Origin: Phenylobacterium sp. | GTDB taxonomy: Bacteria > Pseudomonadota > Alphaproteobacteria > Caulobacterales > Caulobacteraceae | Assembly: GCA_020402745.1 (NCBI GenBank) | Contig: JADBYZ010000001.1 | Location: forward strand, 248,001-312,000 | DNA: 64,000 bases | Reading direction: 5' to 3' | Part shown: piece by piece, positions 30,571 to 40,087 of the stretch | Position numbering within the stretch: position 1 is the stretch's first letter | How the letters are laid out: each line of letters begins with the position of its first letter | Translations under genes and position numbers: made by a program | The notes under the pieces: generated by a model | The model's database searches: none | Seen by the model: the letters and a program-made list of their open reading frames with translations, nothing else | What the model was told of the DNA's origin: nothing

Positions 30571-30633
30571 GAGGGACTCGACTCTCGTGTGAATTGAGCG
30601 CCGCCAGGCTTACATTCATCCGAAACTCAAATT

Positions 30634-33585
30634 TCAGAACTTAACCTCTTTGATATTTGTAACGACATCGAAGTCGATGCCGAGCACTTCAAAATGCCGG
30701 CGACCGCACAGGATTTTCTGGTTCTCCTTTGCCCGCCGGTCCTGACTGTCCAGTGTGCTCTTTGTCTCGCGTACGAAATAAAGTCGCTCTTCCCGCTCCG
30801 TCACGAAAGCCCAATCGGGGTTGTAATTTCCTATCGGCGTCTCAATCCTGAACCAGCCGGGAAGTTTCACAAAGAGCTTCACGTTCTCATTGGAATCGAG
30901 GTCTTGGGCGAACTGCCGCTCGACCTCGGACTCAAATTCAATCGCATCGAACAGCGCCTTGGAGCGGTTCTTCACCTCGTAGAGGTTCTTCAAATAACGG
31001 CTGATGCCCTTCTCGGCATCCTCTTCGATCCGCTTCATCTCCCAGAATTCGCCCGAGATCTTCTCGTACTGAATGCCCTCCAGCATCAGGTCGTGCATGG
31101 CGTATCCGATCTCGCGGGCGACAGCGGCCATAAACTGCTGAGGATTGATCCGGAACTCGCCGATCCGATTTGACCCCTTCAGGATCGCAACCAAAGTGTG
31201 GCGGGTTAGCTCTGTTTCCTTCTGCAGATAGGCGATGATGTCGGGCAGAACCGTGGGCCCCTGAAGAAACTGGATCTCGCTCTCTCGCAACTGGTTGGCC
31301 TGGATGCCAGCGCGCGTGAACTCCACATCGACCCGTGTCGCGGTCAGCACTAAGGGGTTTATCCGTTCCATCGCCTTCAAGCGGTTGACGGCGCGATCAA
31401 TCAGATCAGACGTCTCGAACTGCACACGATAGCGGGTCTTCTGGCTTATCCGCGCCCATAGCTCTCGGAAGTCTTCACGCAGGTGGACCTGTTTGTGGAA
31501 GTGGACGTCGCGCTTTGCATCAGCGTTGCCGATGCGGTCGGCAAACACGTAGCGCCGCATCTCGTCCAGAATGGGCGCACGGAGGTCTTCTAATTCCTCG
31601 GGCAACTCCAGCCGGAAAAGGAGATTGTTCGGATCGAATTTGGGCTGAATGTCGCCGGTGGCGCTAATGTAGCCTTCGGCGTGCATAGCGCTCCAGATTT
31701 GCGCCGATACATCCTGCCCAATCGCCTGGTCCTGACCGTCTTCAGCGGGGCGCACGAGTTTGGCGAACGCCTGGCGCTCGATGCGGCCGAACTTGATGTC
31801 GAAGTCGCGCTCGTATTCCGTTTGGAGCGCGGCGGCGAAGTCCTTGTAGGACTCGCTAGCGATCACAGTCAGGCGATTGAGCTGCTCGTCGTGGACGCGC
31901 TCGCCTTTCTCGTTCACCGGCAACCGAAGGCCACGCCCGATCTGCTGGCGGCGCTCCAATTCGGTGCCGACCTCACGAAGGGTGCAAATCTGGAAGACGT
32001 TCGGGTTGTCCCAACCTTCACGCAAAGCCGTGTGGCTGAAGATGAAGCGGAGAGGCTCCTTGGGGTCGAGGAGCCTTTCCTTGTCGCGCATGATGAGGGC
32101 GTAGGTGTCCTCGTCGTCGGCGGTGTTGCCGCGCGTGTCCTTGGCCTGCCCTTTCTTATCTTGAGAGAAATAGCCGTTGTGCAGCTGGCTTAGCTCGAAC
32201 GGGACGAGGCCTTGGTACATCGGCTTGGCGAGAAACTCCGTGAGCGCCTCCTCCAGCCAGACGCCCACCGGCCCTAGCGCCGTCGAACCATCGTCGCCAT
32301 AGGTTCGGTAGCTCGCGACCTTGTCGAGGAAGAAGAGCGAAAGCACCTTGATCCCCTGATTGCGAAGGGCGCGCTCTTTCTTGAGGTGCTGCTCAACCGT
32401 CTTGCGCACCATGGCCTTCATCACGTCGGCTTCCACGCCGCCGATGGCCTGGCCAAGCTCCAGGAACCGACCTTGGTTGAACTCGACGGTCTCAGCGCCA
32501 GGTGTCGCGTCGATGTGCTGGACGACAAAGCCCTGCTGATAGGGGAAGTGCTCGTCTGACAGATGGAACAGATCGTCGCCCTGCTTGACCCATGCCTTCA
32601 CGGACTTTGGTGTCCCGCTTGTCAGGCGGTGGAATTCGAGTTGCGCCTTGATGCCGTTCTTGTTGTCGGTCTTGAGCAGCTTGACGTAGGCGTCCGAGAA
32701 ATCAGCGTCGGCGTGTATCGAGGCGACCTCGATCCGCTTCACGAGGCGCATGTCGTAGGCTTCGATTGGCCCCAGCCGGTAGAGCAGATTATAGGGATTG
32801 CGGTGGGTGGCGGAGTAGCGAAGCGTCGCCGCCGGATTGAGCTGAGAGATCGCGCGCCGCGACTTCGGCGTGGTGTCCACGCTCTGTGGCTCGTCGATGA
32901 TCACGATGGGATTGGTCGAACGGATGAACTCAATCGGCCGGCCACCCATCTTGTCGTTGTCGCGGTAGATCACGTTGAGGCGCTTGAGCGCTTCCTCGCC
33001 CATCTCGTCGATGTGCGTCTCGTCGTCCCCGACATCCTTCAGGAAGGCCTGGATGTTGATGACCATGATCTGGATGGCGTTGCCGCCAGCGAACTGACGC
33101 ACGTCGCCGAGGCGCTTGGAGTCATAGACGAAAGGCGCGAACGGCACATTGTCGTACAAGGCCTGAAAATGATCACGCATGATCTCTAGGCTCTTCAGGA
33201 CTCCTTCACGTATCGCGATGCTCGGGACGACGATGATGAATTTCTTTAAGCCGTAGCGCTTGTTCAGCTCGAAAACGGTGCGGAGGTAGACATAGGTCTT
33301 TCCCGTCCCCGTCTCCATTTCGACCGAGAACTCGCGTCCTTGGAGCGCTTCGACACGCTCGATGCCGTTCCGTTCTTGAACGGAACGGACGTTCGCCAGG
33401 AATTGTGCGTCGTCGAGGACCAAGTGATTGCCGACACCATGCTCGGTTAAGGCGACGCCCGTCGGCATCGTCGTGCTGATCTCAAAAGTCGTCTGGCCAA
33501 TCGGCTGGCCCTCGAACACGTCCGCAACCGCGCTGACGGCGTCCGACTGGTAGGCGAGAGAGGGATCAAACTTGAGCTTCATCAT
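30634..33585 (-). CDS. res: Type III restriction-modification system, Res subunit
   Basis: Superfamily 2 translocase/endonuclease that, with Mod, cleaves DNA near unmethylated sites. The 983-residue protein has a Walker A motif ETGTGKT at 91-97, a DEPQ box at 231-234, SATHRNPYN, and an SF2 C-domain ending in QQIGRGLRLPVNEKGER. A C-terminal PD-(D/E)xK nuclease shows Asp924 (NYNPDWAFV) and Glu940-x-Lys942 (VRETKS). All catalytic motifs are intact. The ATG pair MMK has GAGG upstream and lies 10 bases after the mod stop, so it is the last gene of helicase-mod-res. Confidence 0.95.
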   Translation of the reverse strand: MMKLKFDPSLAYQSDAVSAVADVFEGQPIGQTTFEISTTMPTGVALTEHGVGNHLVLDDAQFLANVRSVQERNGIERVEALQGREFSVEMETGTGKTYVYLRTVFELNKRYGLKKFIIVVPSIAIREGVLKSLEIMRDHFQALYDNVPFAPFVYDSKRLGDVRQFAGGNAIQIMVINIQAFLKDVGDDETHIDEMGEEALKRLNVIYRDNDKMGGRPIEFIRSTNPIVIIDEPQSVDTTPKSRRAISQLNPAATLRYSATHRNPYNLLYRLGPIEAYDMRLVKRIEVASIHADADFSDAYVKLLKTDNKNGIKAQLEFHRLTSGTPKSVKAWVKQGDDLFHLSDEHFPYQQGFVVQHIDATPGAETVEFNQGRFLELGQAIGGVEADVMKAMVRKTVEQHLKKERALRNQGIKVLSLFFLDKVASYRTYGDDGSTALGPVGVWLEEALTEFLAKPMYQGLVPFELSQLHNGYFSQDKKGQAKDTRGNTADDEDTYALIMRDKERLLDPKEPLRFIFSHTALREGWDNPNVFQICTLREVGTELERRQQIGRGLRLPVNEKGERVHDEQLNRLTVIASESYKDFAAALQTEYERDFDIKFGRIERQAFAKLVRPAEDGQDQAIGQDVSAQIWSAMHAEGYISATGDIQPKFDPNNLLFRLELPEELEDLRAPILDEMRRYVFADRIGNADAKRDVHFHKQVHLREDFRELWARISQKTRYRVQFETSDLIDRAVNRLKAMERINPLVLTATRVDVEFTRAGIQANQLRESEIQFLQGPTVLPDIIAYLQKETELTRHTLVAILKGSNRIGEFRINPQQFMAAVAREIGYAMHDLMLEGIQYEKISGEFWEMKRIEEDAEKGISRYLKNLYEVKNRSKALFDAIEFESEVERQFAQDLDSNENVKLFVKLPGWFRIETPIGNYNPDWAFVTEREERLYFVRETKSTLDSQDRRAKENQKILCGRRHFEVLGIDFDVVTNIKEVKF

Positions 33586-33595
33586 GGCTCAAGCC

Positions 33596-35587
33596 TCAAA
33601 CGGTTCTAAATTCGATAGCGGTCTCACGACTGCGAGCACGGGCCTTAAAGGTCTGCACCGCATTAGCCTTGAGCTGGTCGTTTCCTTGGAAGCCCGCGTC
33701 CAGACAGATCACGCGCGACGGCTCCAAATCTGCCATCGCATCGATAACTTCCTCCGAAAGGGTGTCGGCAAGGCAAATGAGGAGAGCGCCTTCTGCGAGC
33801 GAAAAGACTTCTTTTCCAGCCAACTCTAAACACTCGACCTTGGTCCCGAGGGGGAACCCGTCCTTCAGAATAAGCTCATAGAGAATGTCATACTTGGCAA
33901 CAGACAAATCCACATGCTCGACGTGAAGATCTAGCCGGTGCTGAAGGGCTGAGACATCATCTGGGAGCAATCCTTCAACGTCTCCATTCCAAATTTGGAA
34001 GTTAGAGGCAGAAAGCTCAAAGGCTCTGAAACCGAGATCAACATCGTGCCCGACGAGGCGTCCACTCAGGCTCTTTGCAGCACGCTTTAGACGTTCTCTC
34101 GCAATGGAAGATATATTGAGGAAGCCTGCTTTGCGTTCTTCGGAATCCTCGCCGGTTGGCTCAGGCAGCTGAACACAGATGAAGGGGCGATTCTTGCCGG
34201 TCTCTTTCGACAGCTCCATTGCTGCATGTCCCGTGGAGCCTGAACCCGCGAAGAAATCGAGTGTAATGTCACCCTCTCTAACGCCGCCTATCTCCATCAG
34301 ATACTTTATCAGTGCAGATGGTTTCGCAAAATCAAAAGGAATGTTAAGTGCTTTCAACTCTGCTGAGCTATGTCGACTCTCAAATTTCTCCAGAATATTC
34401 CCGGGCAACTGGCCATCTTCTAAACGGTCATCTAACCAAATTTTATAATAGACGTTCCAGGAGGCTGGAGAGCCATCAACCGTAATCAGGGAGGTCTTAT
34501 CGCTCCTTAGAAATTCGATATTTCCCTCGCGTTTTTCTTCAGCAAATCGCCGGTAGGTCCATCTCCAGACACCATCACCATCTCCGGGCTTGATTTGCTC
34601 ACCTTCTGCAGCTGCTTCGGGAAACGAATCCCCGGGTGGCAACACTAGTTGTCCGTCGGGGCACTCAATATAGAAGCGCTGATTTGCCCGCTGATCGAGC
34701 ATGGCCTGATAGAGGCCCATCGAGCGATAGCGCTTCCCGACCCTCGGCCCATCCTTCGCGATTTTCGTATAGACTTTGTCGATCAAGTTCTGACTGATCT
34801 GCTCGCGGAAAGGTGCGAGCTCGGCAATGTTCTTAGCCATTACGATGATGTAATCGACACTCGGGGAGAAGTGTACGCCTTTTTGACCCCCCGTCTTCAT
34901 CACACGTGAACAAATAGTAACTAGGTTTTCTTCTCCAAAAACGTCCTTGCAAACGGCAAGAAGATTTGAAACTTCGTCTTGGCCGATTGAAATGAAGATT
35001 GCGCCATCTTCTCTTAGCAAATTCTTTGCGAGATATATGCGAGGAAACATCATGTTTAGCCAACGCGTATGAAATCGGCCCGATGACTCTGTGTTTGTTG
35101 AAAAGCGACGCCCCTCATCATTTATCTGACCCGTGTAGGTGAGGTACGTATCTAGATTTTCTGCAAAACGGTCGGGGTATATAAATTCACCACCCGTGTT
35201 ATAAGGCGGATCTATATAGATCATCTTGATCTTCCCGAAATACGCCTTCTGCAAGAGTTTTAACACTTCGAGGTTGTCGCCCTCGATAAATAGGTTCTGG
35301 GTCGTATCCCAATCGACAGACTCCTTTTGCACGGGCTTGAGCGTTCCAACGCTCGGTGCCTGGATGACCTTCATGCAGGCAGCCTTGCCGGGCCAGTTCA
35401 AACCGAACCGCTCACGATCCGGTTCGACCCACTCGCCGAGGACGCGTTTGAGTTGGTCGAGGTCGATTTTCCCCTCAGCGACCGCCTCGGGGAACGTAGT
35501 GGCCAGTACACGCCGAAGCTCGTCCCGCTTTTCGGCGGCAACATCCATCGACGTCAGGGGGAATTTTTCGGGAAGTTCGTCGGTCAT
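33596..35587 (-). CDS. mod: Type III DNA methyltransferase, Mod subunit
   Basis: Adenine-N6 methyltransferase that sets sequence specificity for the type III system. The 663-residue protein is of the beta class: catalytic DPPY at 126-129 precedes the SAM-binding FAGSGSTG at 446-453, with the target recognition region (about 230-400) between. GGGGGA lies just upstream of the ATG, eight bases after the helicase stop. The middle of the gene is strikingly AT-rich for this chromosome (a 60-base sample at 34921 has 24 G+C), consistent with horizontal transfer. The recognition site cannot be read from sequence. Confidence 0.96.
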   Translation of the reverse strand: MTDELPEKFPLTSMDVAAEKRDELRRVLATTFPEAVAEGKIDLDQLKRVLGEWVEPDRERFGLNWPGKAACMKVIQAPSVGTLKPVQKESVDWDTTQNLFIEGDNLEVLKLLQKAYFGKIKMIYIDPPYNTGGEFIYPDRFAENLDTYLTYTGQINDEGRRFSTNTESSGRFHTRWLNMMFPRIYLAKNLLREDGAIFISIGQDEVSNLLAVCKDVFGEENLVTICSRVMKTGGQKGVHFSPSVDYIIVMAKNIAELAPFREQISQNLIDKVYTKIAKDGPRVGKRYRSMGLYQAMLDQRANQRFYIECPDGQLVLPPGDSFPEAAAEGEQIKPGDGDGVWRWTYRRFAEEKREGNIEFLRSDKTSLITVDGSPASWNVYYKIWLDDRLEDGQLPGNILEKFESRHSSAELKALNIPFDFAKPSALIKYLMEIGGVREGDITLDFFAGSGSTGHAAMELSKETGKNRPFICVQLPEPTGEDSEERKAGFLNISSIARERLKRAAKSLSGRLVGHDVDLGFRAFELSASNFQIWNGDVEGLLPDDVSALQHRLDLHVEHVDLSVAKYDILYELILKDGFPLGTKVECLELAGKEVFSLAEGALLICLADTLSEEVIDAMADLEPSRVICLDAGFQGNDQLKANAVQTFKARARSRETAIEFRTV

Positions 35588-35595
35588 ATATCCCC

Positions 35596-38463
35596 CTACG
35601 CAATTTCGAATGTGATCGTGAACAGGTCTTCGGTCGCGACGTTTTGAGCAAGCTGCGCCTCAACGCGGTCGAGGAGGCTATCCTTCTCAACCTCGATTTC
35701 TTTTGCCGCCTCGTCATAGGCTCGCCATGCCGTATCGCGCTTCGCTTCTAACTCGCGCGCCTTTCGTTGGAGCGCGAGCTTGTCGGGCAGATTGCCCGTC
35801 TGGCGTATTTCCCGCTTCAGCGCCTTGAGCTGGTCGTCGAGCTCCTTGAGATCGAACTTCAGACCCGTGCGTCGGTCCTCCGCCCAACTATCGAGCTTGC
35901 CCATCTCATCGTCGAACCAGACCGATTGCCGCGCAGCGAGAACCTCAAGGATCCCGGCGGACTGCGTTTCGAGTGCCGATTGTAAGTCCGGCGCGCCGGC
36001 GACCGAGCCCTCACTGGTCCTTTTCACCGGCAGATCGAACAGTCGCAAGGCGGCTGGTGGATCAATCATCCGCCCATCGTTGGTGCGCGCCGCGATCAGG
36101 ACGTGGTCCTGGGCGTCGATGCCAGAGATAGAGAGTTTGCGGATAACCATGCTGCCGCTCGATCCGACAAACGGTTCGAGGCTGACGGCGTTCTGCTTCC
36201 AGCCCCCATAGTCGAAGACGACGTGTCCGGACGGGAGTTCGCGCTTGGCCGCTTTCTGAAGCACGTGTTGGGCGAGGGGATGACCGAGGCGATAGCGATG
36301 ACCGACCAGACCCTCCTTGGTGAGGAAGTAGGGGCCGTCCGGCACGTCCACACCCGGGGGGCGCTTCGTTAGATTGAAGTGGAGATAGTCCTCGTCGAAC
36401 TTCGCTTGTCCGGCCAGCTCAAATTGAGTGACGCGCCAGAGGAGCCGCTCATAGCGGTTTATGTACTCCCGGCTCTGATCGAGGTTCATCTTTAGCCGAT
36501 CGTGCACCTCGGCGTCGAAGTTTTCGAGGAGCTTGCGCCGCGTGTCCTCCATCGTCGTCGTGATCGAAGCGTCCATCTCGTCGCGAAGCGCCTGGAACTC
36601 GGTCTCGATCTCATCCTCGGTTCGACATTTTTGATAGATGCCGACGATGCGCTTCTCGAATTCGACGCCGGACTCGATAGCGCCGAGCACCTCGTCGCTC
36701 GCGCCGAATACGCCCGAGAAGAGTTTGAACTTCTCGGACAGCAGCTCGAACACCCTTAGGTCGGCGGCGTTGTTGCGGTTGAGGAAGTTGACCACGACGA
36801 CGTCGTGCTTCTGGCCGTAGCGGTGACACCGGCCGATCCGCTGCTCGATCCGCTGAGGGTTCCAGGGCAGGTCGTAGTTCACGACCATGGAGCAGAATTG
36901 CAGGTTGATGCCTTCGGCCGCTGCCTCAGTCGCAATCATGATCGACGACTTCGTCTTGAAATCATCGACGAGGGCCGCGCGCATGTCTGCTGTGCGAGAG
37001 CCGGTGACACGATCCGTGCCTTTGTTCGCCTCCGCCCAGGCCTTGTAGACCGCCTTCGACTTGTCGTCGTTGTTGCTGCCGTTGAACAGAACGATCTGCT
37101 CGCCGTAGCCATTCTCTGACAACAGCCGCACAAGGTAATCCTGCGTGCGCCGGGACTCGGTGAAGATGATGGCCTTGGGCGCTCCGCCAAGTTCAACGGC
37201 CTTCGCGAAACCGACCTTCAGGGCGCTGAGAAGCGATAATCCCTTGGCGTTCTCCGCGATGGAAACCGCGAGATCGCGAAACGCCCGCAGGTCAGCGATT
37301 TCGGCATTGATCGCTTCGATGTCCGCTTCGGTAAGGGGTTCACCTGGCTCGTCGTCATCGCTCCATTCTTCGGCCACTTCGGCCAGCTCCTCGAAGTCAT
37401 CCGCGAGCTCGTCTTGCAGTTTCTCGCGAGCGTCATTGTCGTCCTGAAGCTGGCGCTCAAGTTTGCGGGCAAGGGAATCCAGCGCGCCCGCGATGGCGAA
37501 AGTGGATGACGCCAGAAGCTTGCGCATGATCAGCGTCATCAAGGAGCGCTGACTCGAAGGCAGCGCCTGAAGGCTTGGACGCCGCAGGTAGTCCGATACC
37601 ATGTCGTAGAGTGCCTGTTCGGGCTCAGACGGGATGAACTCCTGGGTGATCGGAATCCGGTTGGTGTACCGGATGTATTCCAGAACTTGCCGTCTGAGCG
37701 TCCGGTGACAGACCGGCGCGAGACGCGCCTTTAGCTCATCGAAGAGGGCGTCACCCGTGAGCCGCGCGTACTGTGCGCGAAAGCTCTTGGCGTCGCCAAA
37801 GGTGTAGTCGTCGATGATGCTGACCAGTCCATACAGCTCCATCAAGGAGTTCTGGAGCGGCGTCGCCGTCAGAAGCACCTTTGGTGCGTTGGCCAGCGCC
37901 GTTTTCAGGGCGCGGCCAATCTTGTTGTCGGTGCGATAGACGTTTCGGAGCCGGTGGGCTTCGTCGATGACGACCAAATCCCACCGCGTCACCATCAGCT
38001 CGTCGGCCTGGCGCGCCGCGAACTGGTAGGAACAAATGACGAGTTCGTCCTGCTCGAACGGGTGACGAACGTCGGCTTTTCGCAGCTTGTTGAAGCTGGC
38101 GCTTTCGAGAATGCAGCTGGGCAGAAAGAACTTGTCGGCCATCTCCTGTGACCACTGCTTCCGCAAGCTGGCGGGGCAGATAATCAGGATGCGACGTTTC
38201 CCTTCGGTCCATTTCTGGGCCAGCAGCAGACCCGCTTCAATGGTTTTGCCGAGCCCAACCTCGTCGGCGAGGATCGCGCCTTTCGAGAGAGGTGATTTGA
38301 ACGCAAAGAGCGCCGCTTCGACCTGATGAGGATTCAGATCGACCTGGGCATCGAGCAGCGTTCCGGCGAGCTTTTCAGAATCGCTGGCGGAGTGACGCCG
38401 CATGAGTTCATGCGCGAACAGCTTTGCGTGATAGGCCGTAGTCAAGCTCTCTCCTTGAATCAC
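35596..38463 (-). CDS. SNF2-family helicase/translocase linked to type III R-M genes
   Basis: A 955-residue SF2 ATPase of the SNF2/RapA type. Motifs are DEVGLGKT at 67-74 (Walker A), DEAH at 167-170, LLTATPLQN at about 197-205, an acidic insert near 340-400, and QRIGRCHRYGQ at 541-551 (motif VI). The last ~400 residues contain coiled-coil-like helices and no nuclease motif I can see. It resembles the DrmD-like helicases of defence loci. The start is GTG at 38463 or TTG at 38445, the latter preceded by AGGAG. It is first in an operon with mod and res (gaps of 8-10 bases), suggesting a joint role. Not part of standard type III systems. Confidence 0.88.
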   Translation of the reverse strand: MIQGESLTTAYHAKLFAHELMRRHSASDSEKLAGTLLDAQVDLNPHQVEAALFAFKSPLSKGAILADEVGLGKTIEAGLLLAQKWTEGKRRILIICPASLRKQWSQEMADKFFLPSCILESASFNKLRKADVRHPFEQDELVICSYQFAARQADELMVTRWDLVVIDEAHRLRNVYRTDNKIGRALKTALANAPKVLLTATPLQNSLMELYGLVSIIDDYTFGDAKSFRAQYARLTGDALFDELKARLAPVCHRTLRRQVLEYIRYTNRIPITQEFIPSEPEQALYDMVSDYLRRPSLQALPSSQRSLMTLIMRKLLASSTFAIAGALDSLARKLERQLQDDNDAREKLQDELADDFEELAEVAEEWSDDDEPGEPLTEADIEAINAEIADLRAFRDLAVSIAENAKGLSLLSALKVGFAKAVELGGAPKAIIFTESRRTQDYLVRLLSENGYGEQIVLFNGSNNDDKSKAVYKAWAEANKGTDRVTGSRTADMRAALVDDFKTKSSIMIATEAAAEGINLQFCSMVVNYDLPWNPQRIEQRIGRCHRYGQKHDVVVVNFLNRNNAADLRVFELLSEKFKLFSGVFGASDEVLGAIESGVEFEKRIVGIYQKCRTEDEIETEFQALRDEMDASITTTMEDTRRKLLENFDAEVHDRLKMNLDQSREYINRYERLLWRVTQFELAGQAKFDEDYLHFNLTKRPPGVDVPDGPYFLTKEGLVGHRYRLGHPLAQHVLQKAAKRELPSGHVVFDYGGWKQNAVSLEPFVGSSGSMVIRKLSISGIDAQDHVLIAARTNDGRMIDPPAALRLFDLPVKRTSEGSVAGAPDLQSALETQSAGILEVLAARQSVWFDDEMGKLDSWAEDRRTGLKFDLKELDDQLKALKREIRQTGNLPDKLALQRKARELEAKRDTAWRAYDEAAKEIEVEKDSLLDRVEAQLAQNVATEDLFTITFEIA

Positions 38464-38596
38464 CTTCTCGGACTTTCAGGACACAGGCGAACAACTCACG
38501 GCAGAAATTGCCTTAAATCTGTATTCAAGGCTTCGCAGTGAGGGGTCAAGCGTACCTGCGATCGAGATAAGGTCACACGACCGTTTCTGTCGCCTA
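38464..38596 (-). promoter_or_regulatory. Upstream region of the helicase-mod-res operon with a weak promoter candidate
   Basis: This non-coding stretch lies between the helicase start and the GNAT fragment. On the minus strand TTGACC (near 38549) is followed 17 bases later by GAATAC (near 38526), a weak -35/-10 pair. A GATTC (GANTC, the CcrM methylation site) overlaps the GTG start region. No inverted repeats suggesting a dedicated controller were found. Confidence 0.3.
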
Positions 38597-38760
38597 CCCC
38601 CCTACCCCTCCGATACAAAATACGCGCTGTCCTCGTCCTTCCCCGGCAGCCGCACCACCCCAGCCGCCTTCAGCCCAATCTTCTTCAGCACCGCCTGCGA
38701 GGCGGTGTTGCCCGGGGTGGTGATGGCGACGATGCGGCCCAGGCGCAGGGCGCGGCGGGC
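38597..38760. repeat. Direct repeat copy 1: duplicated 3' end of the GNAT gene
   Basis: 164 bp nearly identical to 39924-40087, with 7 mismatches by eye, in the same orientation. It starts five bases beyond the GNAT stop and ends abruptly inside the coding sequence. The two copies flank the antitoxin/PIN genes. Most mismatches fall at silent codon positions. Confidence 0.93.
38602..38760 (-). pseudogene. Truncated GNAT acetyltransferase remnant
   Basis: Encodes only the last ~50 residues of the acetyltransferase at 39929-40444 (LRLGRIVAITTPGNTAS through the stop). Against the intact gene there are two amino-acid changes (His to Ala and His to Gln) and otherwise silent changes. The N-terminal two-thirds, including the acetyl-CoA loop, are absent. 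An open frame continues upstream to 38880 but is unrelated to GNAT and runs antisense into the antitoxin gene, so I treat it as non-functional. Confidence 0.85.
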
Positions 38761-38782
38761 CAACCGCGCCGAGCCAACGCAC

Positions 38783-38810
38783 CATTCAATACATTTATTG
38801 CATTTATTGC
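38783..38810 (+). promoter_or_regulatory. AT-rich repeats upstream of the antitoxin gene (candidate operator)
   Basis: CATTTATTG occurs twice in tandem (38792-38800, 38801-38809), followed by CAT. A CAATA-CATT-TATTG inverted repeat (38787-38800) overlaps the first copy. It lies 40-67 bases upstream of the antitoxin ATG in otherwise GC-rich DNA. Position and symmetry suit an autoregulatory site of a toxin-antitoxin operon. Confidence 0.5.
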
Positions 38811-38849
38811 ATCTAATCCCTAGATCGAGGACAGGATAAGGAAATTCCC

Positions 38850-39314
38850 ATGACCCTGCTCGCACACCGACAGCCCCCACCCTCCGCGCAGGACGCCGCC
38901 CTGGCGCGCGCCTCGGGGCAGCTCCTGTCCCGCTATGCGCGGGGGCAGCGCCCCCTCACGCTTCGCGTTCGGGACGCCGGCCAGGACCAGCCCCTTGAGC
39001 TGCCCACAGGCGCGGCCGCCCTGCTGATGGACATCCTCGAAGCCATGGCCGCAGGACGCGGCGTCACCCTTATTCCGGAGAACGCCGAACTGACCACCGT
39101 GCAGGCCGCCGAGATCCTGAACGTCTCCCGCCCCTTTCTGATCAAGTTACTGGAGGAGAACGCCATCCCCCATCGCAAGGTGGGCAAGCACCGTCGGATC
39201 CGCATGGAGGACGTCATGACCTACAAGGCGAGGATCGACCGTGAGCGCGAAGCCGTTCTGGACCAGCTGGTGAGCGAGGCGCAGGCGCAGGACATGGGCT
39301 ATGGCCCTGCATGA
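38850..39314 (+). CDS. Helix-turn-helix antitoxin (excisionase-like DNA-binding domain)
   Basis: A 154-residue protein whose residues 81-126 form an excisionase/MerR-like winged helix: LTTVQAAEILNVSRPFLIKLLEENA, then IPHRKVGKHRRIRMEDVMTYK. The N-terminal 75 residues are helical and Ala/Leu-rich. The C-terminal ~28 residues are charged and could wrap the toxin. The stop overlaps the start of the PIN gene by four bases (ATGA). Antitoxin-toxin order, overlap and upstream repeats together suggest an autoregulated VapBC-like pair of the larger HTH/PIN type. Neither toxicity nor binding is shown by sequence. Confidence 0.8.
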   Translation: MTLLAHRQPPPSAQDAALARASGQLLSRYARGQRPLTLRVRDAGQDQPLELPTGAAALLMDILEAMAAGRGVTLIPENAELTTVQAAEILNVSRPFLIKLLEENAIPHRKVGKHRRIRMEDVMTYKARIDREREAVLDQLVSEAQAQDMGYGPA

Positions 39315-39880
39315 GCCGCTTTTCGGCGCTTCTCGACGCCAACGTCCTCTATCCCGCGCCCCTGCGGGACCTGTTCCTGCAACTGGCCGTTACGGACCTC
39401 TTCAAGGCCCGCTGGAGCGCCGACATCCATCGCGAGTGGATCGAGGCGCTCCTTCGCAATGAGCCCCACCGCGAGCGCGCCGCCCTGGAGCGAACCCGCG
39501 ACCTGATGGACCAACACACCCGCGACGCCCTGGTGACCGGCTACGAAGGGCTGATCCCGACGCTTGTGCTTCCCGATCCAGGGGATCGCCACGTCCTCGC
39601 CGCCGCCATCGCGGGGCGCTGCGATGTGATCGTCACGCAGAATCTCAAGCACTTTCCCGACGCGGCCCTCGCGCCCCTGGGCATCGAGGCGCTGCATCCG
39701 GACGAATTTCTCTGCAACCAGATGAGTCTTGCGCCTGGGCTCTTCTGCAGCGCCGTCAGGAAGGTGCGCGCCCGCCTCAGGAACCCGCCACATTCTGTAG
39801 AGTCGTATCTGGAAACCCTGACCCGGCAGGGCCTCGTGGCCACCGTCGCCGAGCTGGAACCGTTCGCCGACGGACTTTAA
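39311..39880 (+). CDS. PIN-domain toxin (VapC-like ribonuclease)
   Basis: A 189-residue protein with a PIN nuclease domain: Asp9 in ALLDANVLYPAPLRD, Glu42 in DIHREWIEALL, Asp92 in DPGDRHVLAAAI, and a fourth polar position around Asp105/Asn111 in CDVIVTQNLKHFP. The DANVLYP start and HVLAAA are characteristic of the PIN group paired with HTH antitoxins. About 60 C-terminal residues extend beyond the PIN core. The acid set looks complete, so it is probably an active Mg-dependent ribonuclease; its RNA target is unknown. Confidence 0.85.
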   Translation: MSRFSALLDANVLYPAPLRDLFLQLAVTDLFKARWSADIHREWIEALLRNEPHRERAALERTRDLMDQHTRDALVTGYEGLIPTLVLPDPGDRHVLAAAIAGRCDVIVTQNLKHFPDAALAPLGIEALHPDEFLCNQMSLAPGLFCSAVRKVRARLRNPPHSVESYLETLTRQGLVATVAELEPFADGL

Positions 39881-39923
39881 GTCCGAGCCATGATGGGCTT
39901 GGGCGTCCATTGGCTTTGGATCG

Positions 39924-40087
39924 CCCCCCTACCCCTCCGACACAAAATACGCGCTGTCCTCGTCCTTCCCCGGCAGACGCACCACCCCCGCCGCCTTCAG
40001 CCCGATCTTCTTCAGCACCGCGTGCGAGGCGGTGTTGCCCGGGGTGGTGATGGCGACGATGCGGCCCAGGCGCAGGTGGCGGCGGGC
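39924..40087. repeat. Direct repeat copy 2: 3' end of the intact GNAT gene
   Basis: Partner of 38597-38760; contains the natural end of the acetyltransferase gene. The two copies are separated by 1163 bases that hold only the toxin-antitoxin module. Confidence 0.93.

Follow-up and report, generated by a model that had tools for sequence, protein, structure and literature searches.

A 64,000-nucleotide stretch of the genome of Phenylobacterium sp. (contig JADBYZ010000001.1, positions 248,001 to 312,000; hereafter the window), drawn from a 2.87-Mb assembly of 46 contigs, carries an operon in which a gene for an SNF2-family helicase is followed by the genes for the methyltransferase (Mod) and the restriction subunit (Res) of a type III restriction-modification enzyme. 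Type III enzymes are generally described as two-gene systems. The operon is best explained, with a probability of roughly 0.6, as a horizontally acquired three-gene type III system of which a DrmD-like SNF2 ATPase would be a conserved third component. The helicase is very probably a functional partner of type III enzymes, and the trio resembles a DNA-cutting defence against phages to which a motor protein has been added. A preliminary description of the window had proposed the helicase as third component of an extended type III system; the linkage of its family to mod and res and its kinship to DrmD speak for that part of the proposal, and the novelty claimed along with it was weakened by comparison with the literature.

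Helicase, mod and res follow one another in that order on the minus strand, with gaps of 8 bases between helicase and mod and of 10 bases between mod and res; their spacing on one strand and their intact motifs, as first described, were confirmed by open reading frame (ORF) positions, a motif check, and Pfam and PADLOC searches. The helicase contains the motifs DEVGLGKT, DEAH, TATPLQ, TEAAAEG and QRIGRCHRYGQ, all intact, and its residues K67, D161-H164, R536 and R539 occupy invariant columns of a 54-sequence alignment. In the Pfam scan it matched SNF2/helicase-type domains only (SNF2-rel_dom, 117 bits; Helicase_C, 76 bits), and no nuclease domain. Its ORF as listed spans 35596-38463 (955 aa) and begins with a GTG at 38463; a TTG at 38445 is the more likely start, because AAGGAG sits just upstream. 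In Mod, DPPY (aa 126-129) precedes FAGSGSTG (aa 446-453); DPPY before the S-adenosylmethionine (SAM) motif is the order of beta-class methyltransferases. The protein matches PADLOC MTase_III (PDLC03634, 556 bits) and Pfam N6_N4_Mtase, and type III Mods are classed as beta-class in PMC8259958. In Res, GTGKT, DEPQ and QQIGRGLR are followed by PDWAF...ETK, a C-terminal PD-(D/E)xK nuclease, and the protein matches PADLOC REase_III (PDLC03647, 980 bits) as well as Pfam ResIII and RE_endonuc (PF19778). The sequence hallmarks of type III systems are thereby all present: a Mod with DPPY before the SAM motif, a Res with an SF2 motor and a nuclease, and mod next to res on the same strand.

The evidence that carries the proposed partnership is the linkage of the helicase family to mod and res. 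A family profile was built from 20 helicase members, and the best 80 of 561 relatives were taken, distant members being under-sampled. From 106 starting loci, removal of duplicates (L088, L115 and L137) and of helicases scoring at most 1000 bits left 86, of which 65, the window among them and some of them near-copies (L049 and L128), had at least 6 kb of downstream sequence. In 60 of these 65 loci, both Mod and Res, found by phmmer with seeds of several kinds, are encoded downstream of the helicase and on its strand; in the remaining five, mod and res lie upstream (L103 and L113), mod stands alone (L123 and L133) or neither gene is matched (L083). IMG/VR loci, which lie outside the profile, have the same arrangement in 26 of 28 cases, the exceptions being L326, where mod and res lie downstream on the opposite strand (an inverted arrangement), and L333, which has neither gene. 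The control consisted of 20 regions with genes for RapA and other SNF2 proteins, hand-picked from lower-scoring SNF2 matches, free by design of the HKD+SNF2 genes described below, and three of them 12.6-14 kb instead of 20 kb long; none gave a mod or res match. The linkage therefore exceeds chance, as 60/65 family loci stand against 0/20 control loci. The tie that had been asserted from the window alone thus holds, and the co-occurrence check that had been suggested for it found the homologues of the helicase mostly linked to mod and res.

This arrangement is widely distributed. The genome loci, judged from the record titles of the best 80 of 561 matches, span Proteobacteria, Bacteroidetes, Clostridia, Planctomycetota, Actinobacteria, Patescibacteria, Spirochaetes and more, and at least 80% of one such locus is held by 145 of 5,426 complete E. 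coli genomes. In 11 annotated plasmid loci that were viewed, a methyltransferase gene lies downstream in all 11 and a Res-like protein is also encoded in nine. In 398 genomes of the phylum, near-full-length family members score at least 735 bits, and the next match, a fragment, scores 252 bits. Of 229 phage records with a match, none covers 80% of the query; the best reaches 70% coverage and 42% identity in a 4.5-kb record. Two single loci may be mentioned here. In L123 (3780-9185), the family helicase lies within an 1801-aa open frame, many genes before mod, and may be part of a fusion. In L122 (9884-12661), a metagenome-assembled genome of Archangium, a DrmD-like helicase (617 bits to PDLC02619) occurs in a 20.7-kb locus without a mod or res match.

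The three-gene layout is not new. It is widespread and was first noted in 2021, in a paper that describes, for Eco86II, BspHIV and more than 500 genomes, a conserved helicase-like ATPase gene of unknown role immediately 5′ of mod (PMC8259958); this precedent, together with a 46% homologue in E. coli NCTC86, weakens the preliminary view of an under-described system. According to the same source, the extra ATPase has no nuclease motif and is dispensable for methylation in both systems studied. The NCTC86 locus (NZ_LT601384.1) has the order SNF2-Mod-Res, with the SNF2 gene directly 5′ of mod as in the window, and we infer that it is Eco86II, because the gene order fits and because F9792 and B4103-1, strains with the same motif in PMC8259958, carry it. 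Its SNF2 protein scores 1383 bits against the family profile and is 46% identical to the window helicase (443/971 aligned positions) over residues 2-948 of 949, whereas the Mods share only 24% identity over 405 aligned positions and the Res proteins show no detectable similarity (E 0.08). The NCTC86 Mod, of 1040 aa and reported to make N4-methylcytosine (PMC8259958), also differs in size from the 663-aa Mod of the window. The window trio thus belongs to the known, unexplained Eco86II kind, with a different Mod-Res type.

The Mod and Res domain plans agree with those of the classical type III enzymes EcoP1I and EcoP15I, and the window Res scores 360 bits against the type III endonuclease model PRK15483 of NCBIfam, though below the cut-off of 564. 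To our knowledge, the classical EcoP1I/EcoP15I pairs have no third gene. None is mentioned for classical type III enzymes in the accessible part of PMC3874151, and for EcoP15I, PMC4490356 reports that ATP hydrolysis by Res sets the enzyme sliding and that it cuts once it collides with a second one. An SNF2/RapA-like or other SF2 helicase also stands beside a methyltransferase in Hma, BREX (BrxHI/BrxHII) and ARMADA (ArmA), but as far as the accessible descriptions go its partners there are an m5C (5-methylcytosine) methylase and an ATPase, BREX proteins, or PglX-like and YprA-like proteins, not a type III Mod-Res pair (PMC8565338, PMC12839542, PMC12458937). The window helicase scores 175 bits against HmaA, 245 against BrxHI and 177 against BrxHII, vs. 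701 against DrmD. SNF2 helicases in MORC-containing restriction operons, with a different layout, appear in a 2008 paper (PMC2292703).

The kinship to DrmD noticed in the preliminary description is real. Against the PADLOC DrmD model (PDLC02619; 701 bits), the best stretch covers aa 35-673 and profile positions 25-657 of 872; against NCBIfam DISARM_DrmD_b, the score is 704 bits for a model cut-off of 950. Residues 575-949 of the helicase family align with DrmD_b in profile-profile comparison (hhalign probability 99.7, E 1.2e-26) and not with RapA, so that a RapA-like C-terminal domain was rejected. No match to DrmA (PDLC02575) or to DrmB (DUF1998, PDLC02583) was found in the whole 2.87-Mb assembly, the controls having matched in 7/14 and 2/14 genomes, respectively. 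The absence of other DISARM genes, as stated in the preliminary description, is accordingly upheld for these two genes (DrmC was not searched). Because DrmA and DrmB are missing from the genome, membership of the trio in DISARM is ruled out, and the predicted system is related to DISARM but not part of it.

DISARM loci that do contain DrmD_b resemble the window in their homologous helicase and in including type III Mod and Res genes. The Anaerovibrio locus L129 has the order DrmMII-DrmD_b-Mod-Res-DrmA-DrmB and the Erysipelotrichaceae locus L131 the order Mod-Res-DrmMII-DrmD_b-DrmA-DrmB, their Mods having been identified by phmmer only and the L131 Res scoring just 38 bits against REase_III. 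The same Mod, Res, DrmA and DrmB were found, by phmmer from L129 and L131, in the IMG/VR contigs L332 (= L363), L334 (= L364) and L336. A type III Mod-Res pair thus lies between or beside the drm genes in all five distinct DrmD_b DISARM loci with context; a further DrmD_b-like IMG/VR contig (L331) ends at the helicase and was left out of the five, and DrmMII was tested in L129 and L131 only. These loci differ from the window in having DrmA and DrmB and, in L129 and L131, DrmMII. Phmmer searches with the same DrmA and DrmB queries gave no match in the 89 loci from genomes and plasmids whose helicase exceeds 1000 bits (a count that includes duplicates), nor in the 39 IMG/VR loci at 900 bits or more; some of the loci are short. 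No DrmD_b locus with 80% coverage occurred on plasmids (28 records), and IMG/VR held two further ones. In Cutibacterium acnes DSM 16379, a type III system and DISARM likewise lie side by side, but there the type III genes are on a 32.5-kb insertion that splits drmMI, an island outside the DISARM operon as such, as compared by description only (PMC7365801). A partial literature search found no prior description of a DISARM operon that includes type III Mod and Res, which earlier papers may hold. PMC9142583 names the interplay of DrmAB and DrmD as future work.

The partners of the helicase appear to be exchangeable. BLAST clustering divides the Res genes that accompany the family helicase into three groups, with 36, 21 and 12 members, and leaves one fragment. 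On a 94-row helicase tree (a quick tree with SH-aLRT support only and a long-branch warning at L131/L136), Res type changes 11 times, vs. a shuffled mean of 25.6, so that Res types are, by these comparisons, clustered on the helicase tree yet repeatedly swapped. The helicases of L053 and L056 are 84% identical and stand beside Mod and Res of different types, a pattern of apparent helicase persistence while the Mod-Res type changes. Between the window and L037, identity is 73% for the helicase, 65% for Res and 53% for Mod; in each of 10 same-type pairs, Mod shows the lowest conservation of the three, and the helicase is more conserved than Res in six and less in four.

Further genes are frequently found within these operons. 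With a simple ORF caller, same-strand genes of at least 90 aa occupy the slot between helicase and res in 35/60 loci, or 36 with the annotated DUF262 gene of L037 that the caller overlooked, and plain trios therefore number at most 24 and not 25; an insertion sequence (IS) transposase in L036 was scored as a slot gene. In the window the slot is empty. Over 86 loci, the clusters of slot genes comprise 10 AIPR, seven Schlafen AlbA_2, six SMC-like AAA, five AAA_21/HEC-01A, four RhuM and two SIR2 genes as well as smaller clusters, identified from one representative per named cluster. In E. coli STEC309 (L368, 12772-14877), a DUF262/DUF1524 gene lies between SNF2 and mod, in a locus situated before dinD. 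In the part of the literature searched, no prior description was found of partner exchange under such a helicase, nor of the frequent presence of other defence genes in the operon.

Upstream, in L036-L040 and L365, a small helix-turn-helix (HTH) gene either overlaps the helicase gene or immediately precedes it, and five HTH queries matched upstream in 15/89 regions, five of which are the queries' own loci. PGAP names the small HTH gene upstream of the helicase in E. coli LS45 MAD1 (38 bits to mad1). In L365 (11811-12011), it likewise labels the HTH gene before SNF2 as MAD1 of MADS, in an operon of the order SNF2-Abi-AIPR-Mod-Res. A MADS-like HTH (MAD1) gene or remnant was sought directly upstream of the window helicase with the five HTH queries and not found, other MADS genes not having been searched; the window HTH protein at 38850-39314, on the strand opposite to the helicase, scores 18 bits against mad1.

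Seen from the side of Res, an SNF2 partner of another kind comes to light. Window-type Res occurs in 44/398 genomes (E 1e-20), and 20 regions with high-scoring matches and usable contigs were hand-picked from these. An HKD+SNF2 gene lies upstream of mod-res in 14/18 loci with readable context, 11 of the 14 with a DUF4391 match; four have no HKD+SNF2 gene, and two of the 20 regions are interrupted by contig ends. The remark in the preliminary description that Mod and Res suffice for a standard type III system thus hides a different SNF2 gene. Contig and fetch ends frequently cut a later batch of 20 regions, from which L268, L271, L283, L287 and L279 only were used: of the window-type loci, L283 has an HKD+SNF2 gene and L287 no SNF2 gene. 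Since an SNF2 gene of a different type occupies the same place beside window-type Res, these sequences suggest that an SNF2 motor as such may be useful to type III systems. The genome of the window has both kinds of SNF2 partner. Its contig C4 carries, at L171, a second locus of the order HKD+SNF2-DUF4391-Mod-Res, which resembles the window operon in having SNF2 upstream of mod-res and in a Res with the same best PADLOC model (PDLC03647; 39% identical to the window Res). It differs in the intervening DUF4391 gene and in a helicase that is 29% identical, over part, to that of the window and is of the HKD+Snf2 kind (PADLOC C3a139, 434 bits). No prior description of the HKD+SNF2-DUF4391-Mod-Res layout came up in a partial search of the literature, though earlier papers may hold one. 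The res1 subfamily occurs in 20 genomes (E 1e-80), close to the family helicase by coordinates in 10, and the res2 subfamily in 5/398 genomes, near the helicase in three (G138, G341 and G394). On contig C190 of G053 (L279), a res2-type Mod-Res pair is preceded by a 109-aa helicase-like ORF only, possibly a decayed helicase gene.

Several observations weigh against a dedicated third component. Window-type Res lies near the family helicase on one contig in only 3/44 genomes (G000, G289 and G304); in four more (G001, G061, G185 and G203) helicase and Res are on different contigs and may still be linked. The family helicase stands without a mod or res match in L083 and L333, the res1 loci L268 and L271 have readable context and no family helicase, and HKD+SNF2 genes are likewise tied to mod-res, so that linkage is not unique to the helicase family of the window. 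The apparent exchange of Mod-Res types argues against a tight, co-adapted protein interface. A partly purified, still cutting preparation of Eco86II contained no ATPase peptides according to PMC8259958, and a stable helicase-Mod-Res complex is therefore not supported.

Among the alternatives, the helicase could be a defence gene in its own right, found with type III genes because defence genes cluster. The packing of AIPR, Schlafen, SMC-like AAA, HEC-01A, RhuM and SIR2 genes into the same operons fits this idea, as do the helicases of L083 and L333; but order and strand are fixed in 60/65 loci from many phyla, vs. 0/20 for control SNF2 genes, which makes it improbable. It could instead be a RapA-like regulator that, with an upstream HTH gene, controls how mod-res or phage genes are transcribed and so restrains a dangerous nuclease. 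RapA is the best-scoring solved sequence, the small HTH genes before the helicase in L036-L040 and L365 would suit such a role, and in Eco86II the ATPase is needed neither for methylation nor, apparently, for cutting in vitro (PMC8259958). The motor core alone aligns with RapA, however (aa 30-552), the C-terminal part of the helicase matching DrmD_b instead, and upstream HTH matches are confined to the 15 regions counted above, without one in the window. Regulation is accordingly unlikely, if marginally less so than mere co-travel. Least probable of all is a degenerate DISARM from which drmA, drmB and drmC have disappeared, an idea drawn from the kinship to DrmD and from the type III Mod-Res of DrmD_b DISARM loci: a trio without DrmAB is the usual state (0/89 and 0/39 loci with DrmA or DrmB), L129 and L131 stand on a separate branch of the helicase tree (support 100, flagged with a long-branch warning), and the best stretch to the DrmD model stops at position 657 of 872.

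For the preferred three-component reading, a mechanism can be sketched, tentatively and with the odds somewhat against it, in which the SNF2 protein would be an ATP-driven translocase or remodeller working on double-stranded DNA beside Mod-Res. Mod would recognise and methylate host DNA, and Mod-Res would find unmethylated foreign DNA, slide and cut. The SNF2 motor would clear or displace proteins on the incoming DNA, or else turn recognition into a second step or pass it to a second effector, and defence would become effective in a cell where Mod-Res alone is weak. The PDB sequences scoring best against the family profile are RapA and then chromatin remodellers, with the best stretch in the motor core. 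The SNF2 protein would thus move on DNA, work with Mod-Res and act in vivo beyond simple cutting in this sketch. The variety of slot genes and the presence of DrmAB in DISARM would favour the second-effector form for cargo-bearing loci, and plain trios such as that of the window the remodelling form.

On a broader view, to which we give slightly less than even odds, SNF2 ATPase, Mod and Res would form a movable platform recognising foreign DNA, with a constant motor, exchangeable Mod-Res types and effectors that are slotted in (AIPR, Schlafen, SIR2, GmrSD-like DUF262, RhuM) or appended (DrmA-DrmB). If so, the DrmD_b branch of DISARM would be an outgrowth of type III restriction and not a separate invention. 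Since such a third gene is retained across partner changes and is present in common E. coli, a component may have been missing from much of the work on type III enzymes. With the E. coli versions, the role of the helicase can already be tested in laboratory strains, and DISARM loci in which a type III Mod-Res is built in could help to explain what DrmD does.

The setting of the operon is consistent with its acquisition from elsewhere. In 13 same-genus regions, matches to helicase, mod and res are absent throughout (tblastn, E 1e-8); hemB and a GNAT gene adjoin directly in three (L236-L238), and in four (L233, L234, L235 and L245) no GNAT match lies between hemB and a dehydrogenase gene. GC content is 58.3% in res, 51.0% in mod and 59.8% in the helicase gene, vs. 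67.6% in the window outside the insert. Coordinates are collected in Table 1.

Table 1. Position of the operon, its surroundings and the second type III locus of the same genome
Feature	Position	Strand	Basis or remarks
SNF2-family helicase/ATPase, first gene of the operon	35596..38445	minus	Pfam, PADLOC, NCBIfam, alignment
mod, type III DNA methyltransferase, 663 aa	33596..35587	minus	PADLOC, Pfam, motifs
res, type III restriction subunit, SF2 motor and C-terminal nuclease, 983 aa	30634..33585	minus	
Inserted stretch, about 9.35 kb, between hemB and the 3′ end of the GNAT gene	30571..39923		same-genus comparison
Extra copy of the GNAT gene 3′ end	38597..38760	minus	164-bp direct repeat of 39924-40087, 96% identical
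HTH/excisionase-fold protein (38850-39314) and PIN-domain protein (39311-39880)	38850..39880	plus	TIGR01764, PF12728; PF13470; NF046100 137 bits, cut-off 170
Second type III locus, L171 (contig C4, 100000-119999)	8174-17201		HKD+SNF2 helicase of 1091 aa, DUF4391, Mod, Res

The HTH/PIN pair is probably a toxin-antitoxin pair and a passenger outside the proposed system. It is flanked by both copies of the 164-bp GNAT repeat, and this duplication of the GNAT end around the pair suggests two successive insertions at that site. Within the genus, the hemB-GNAT junction has the appearance of a hot spot for insertions: in 6/13 same-genus regions (L239-L244), 0.9-3.8 kb of other DNA separates the two genes.

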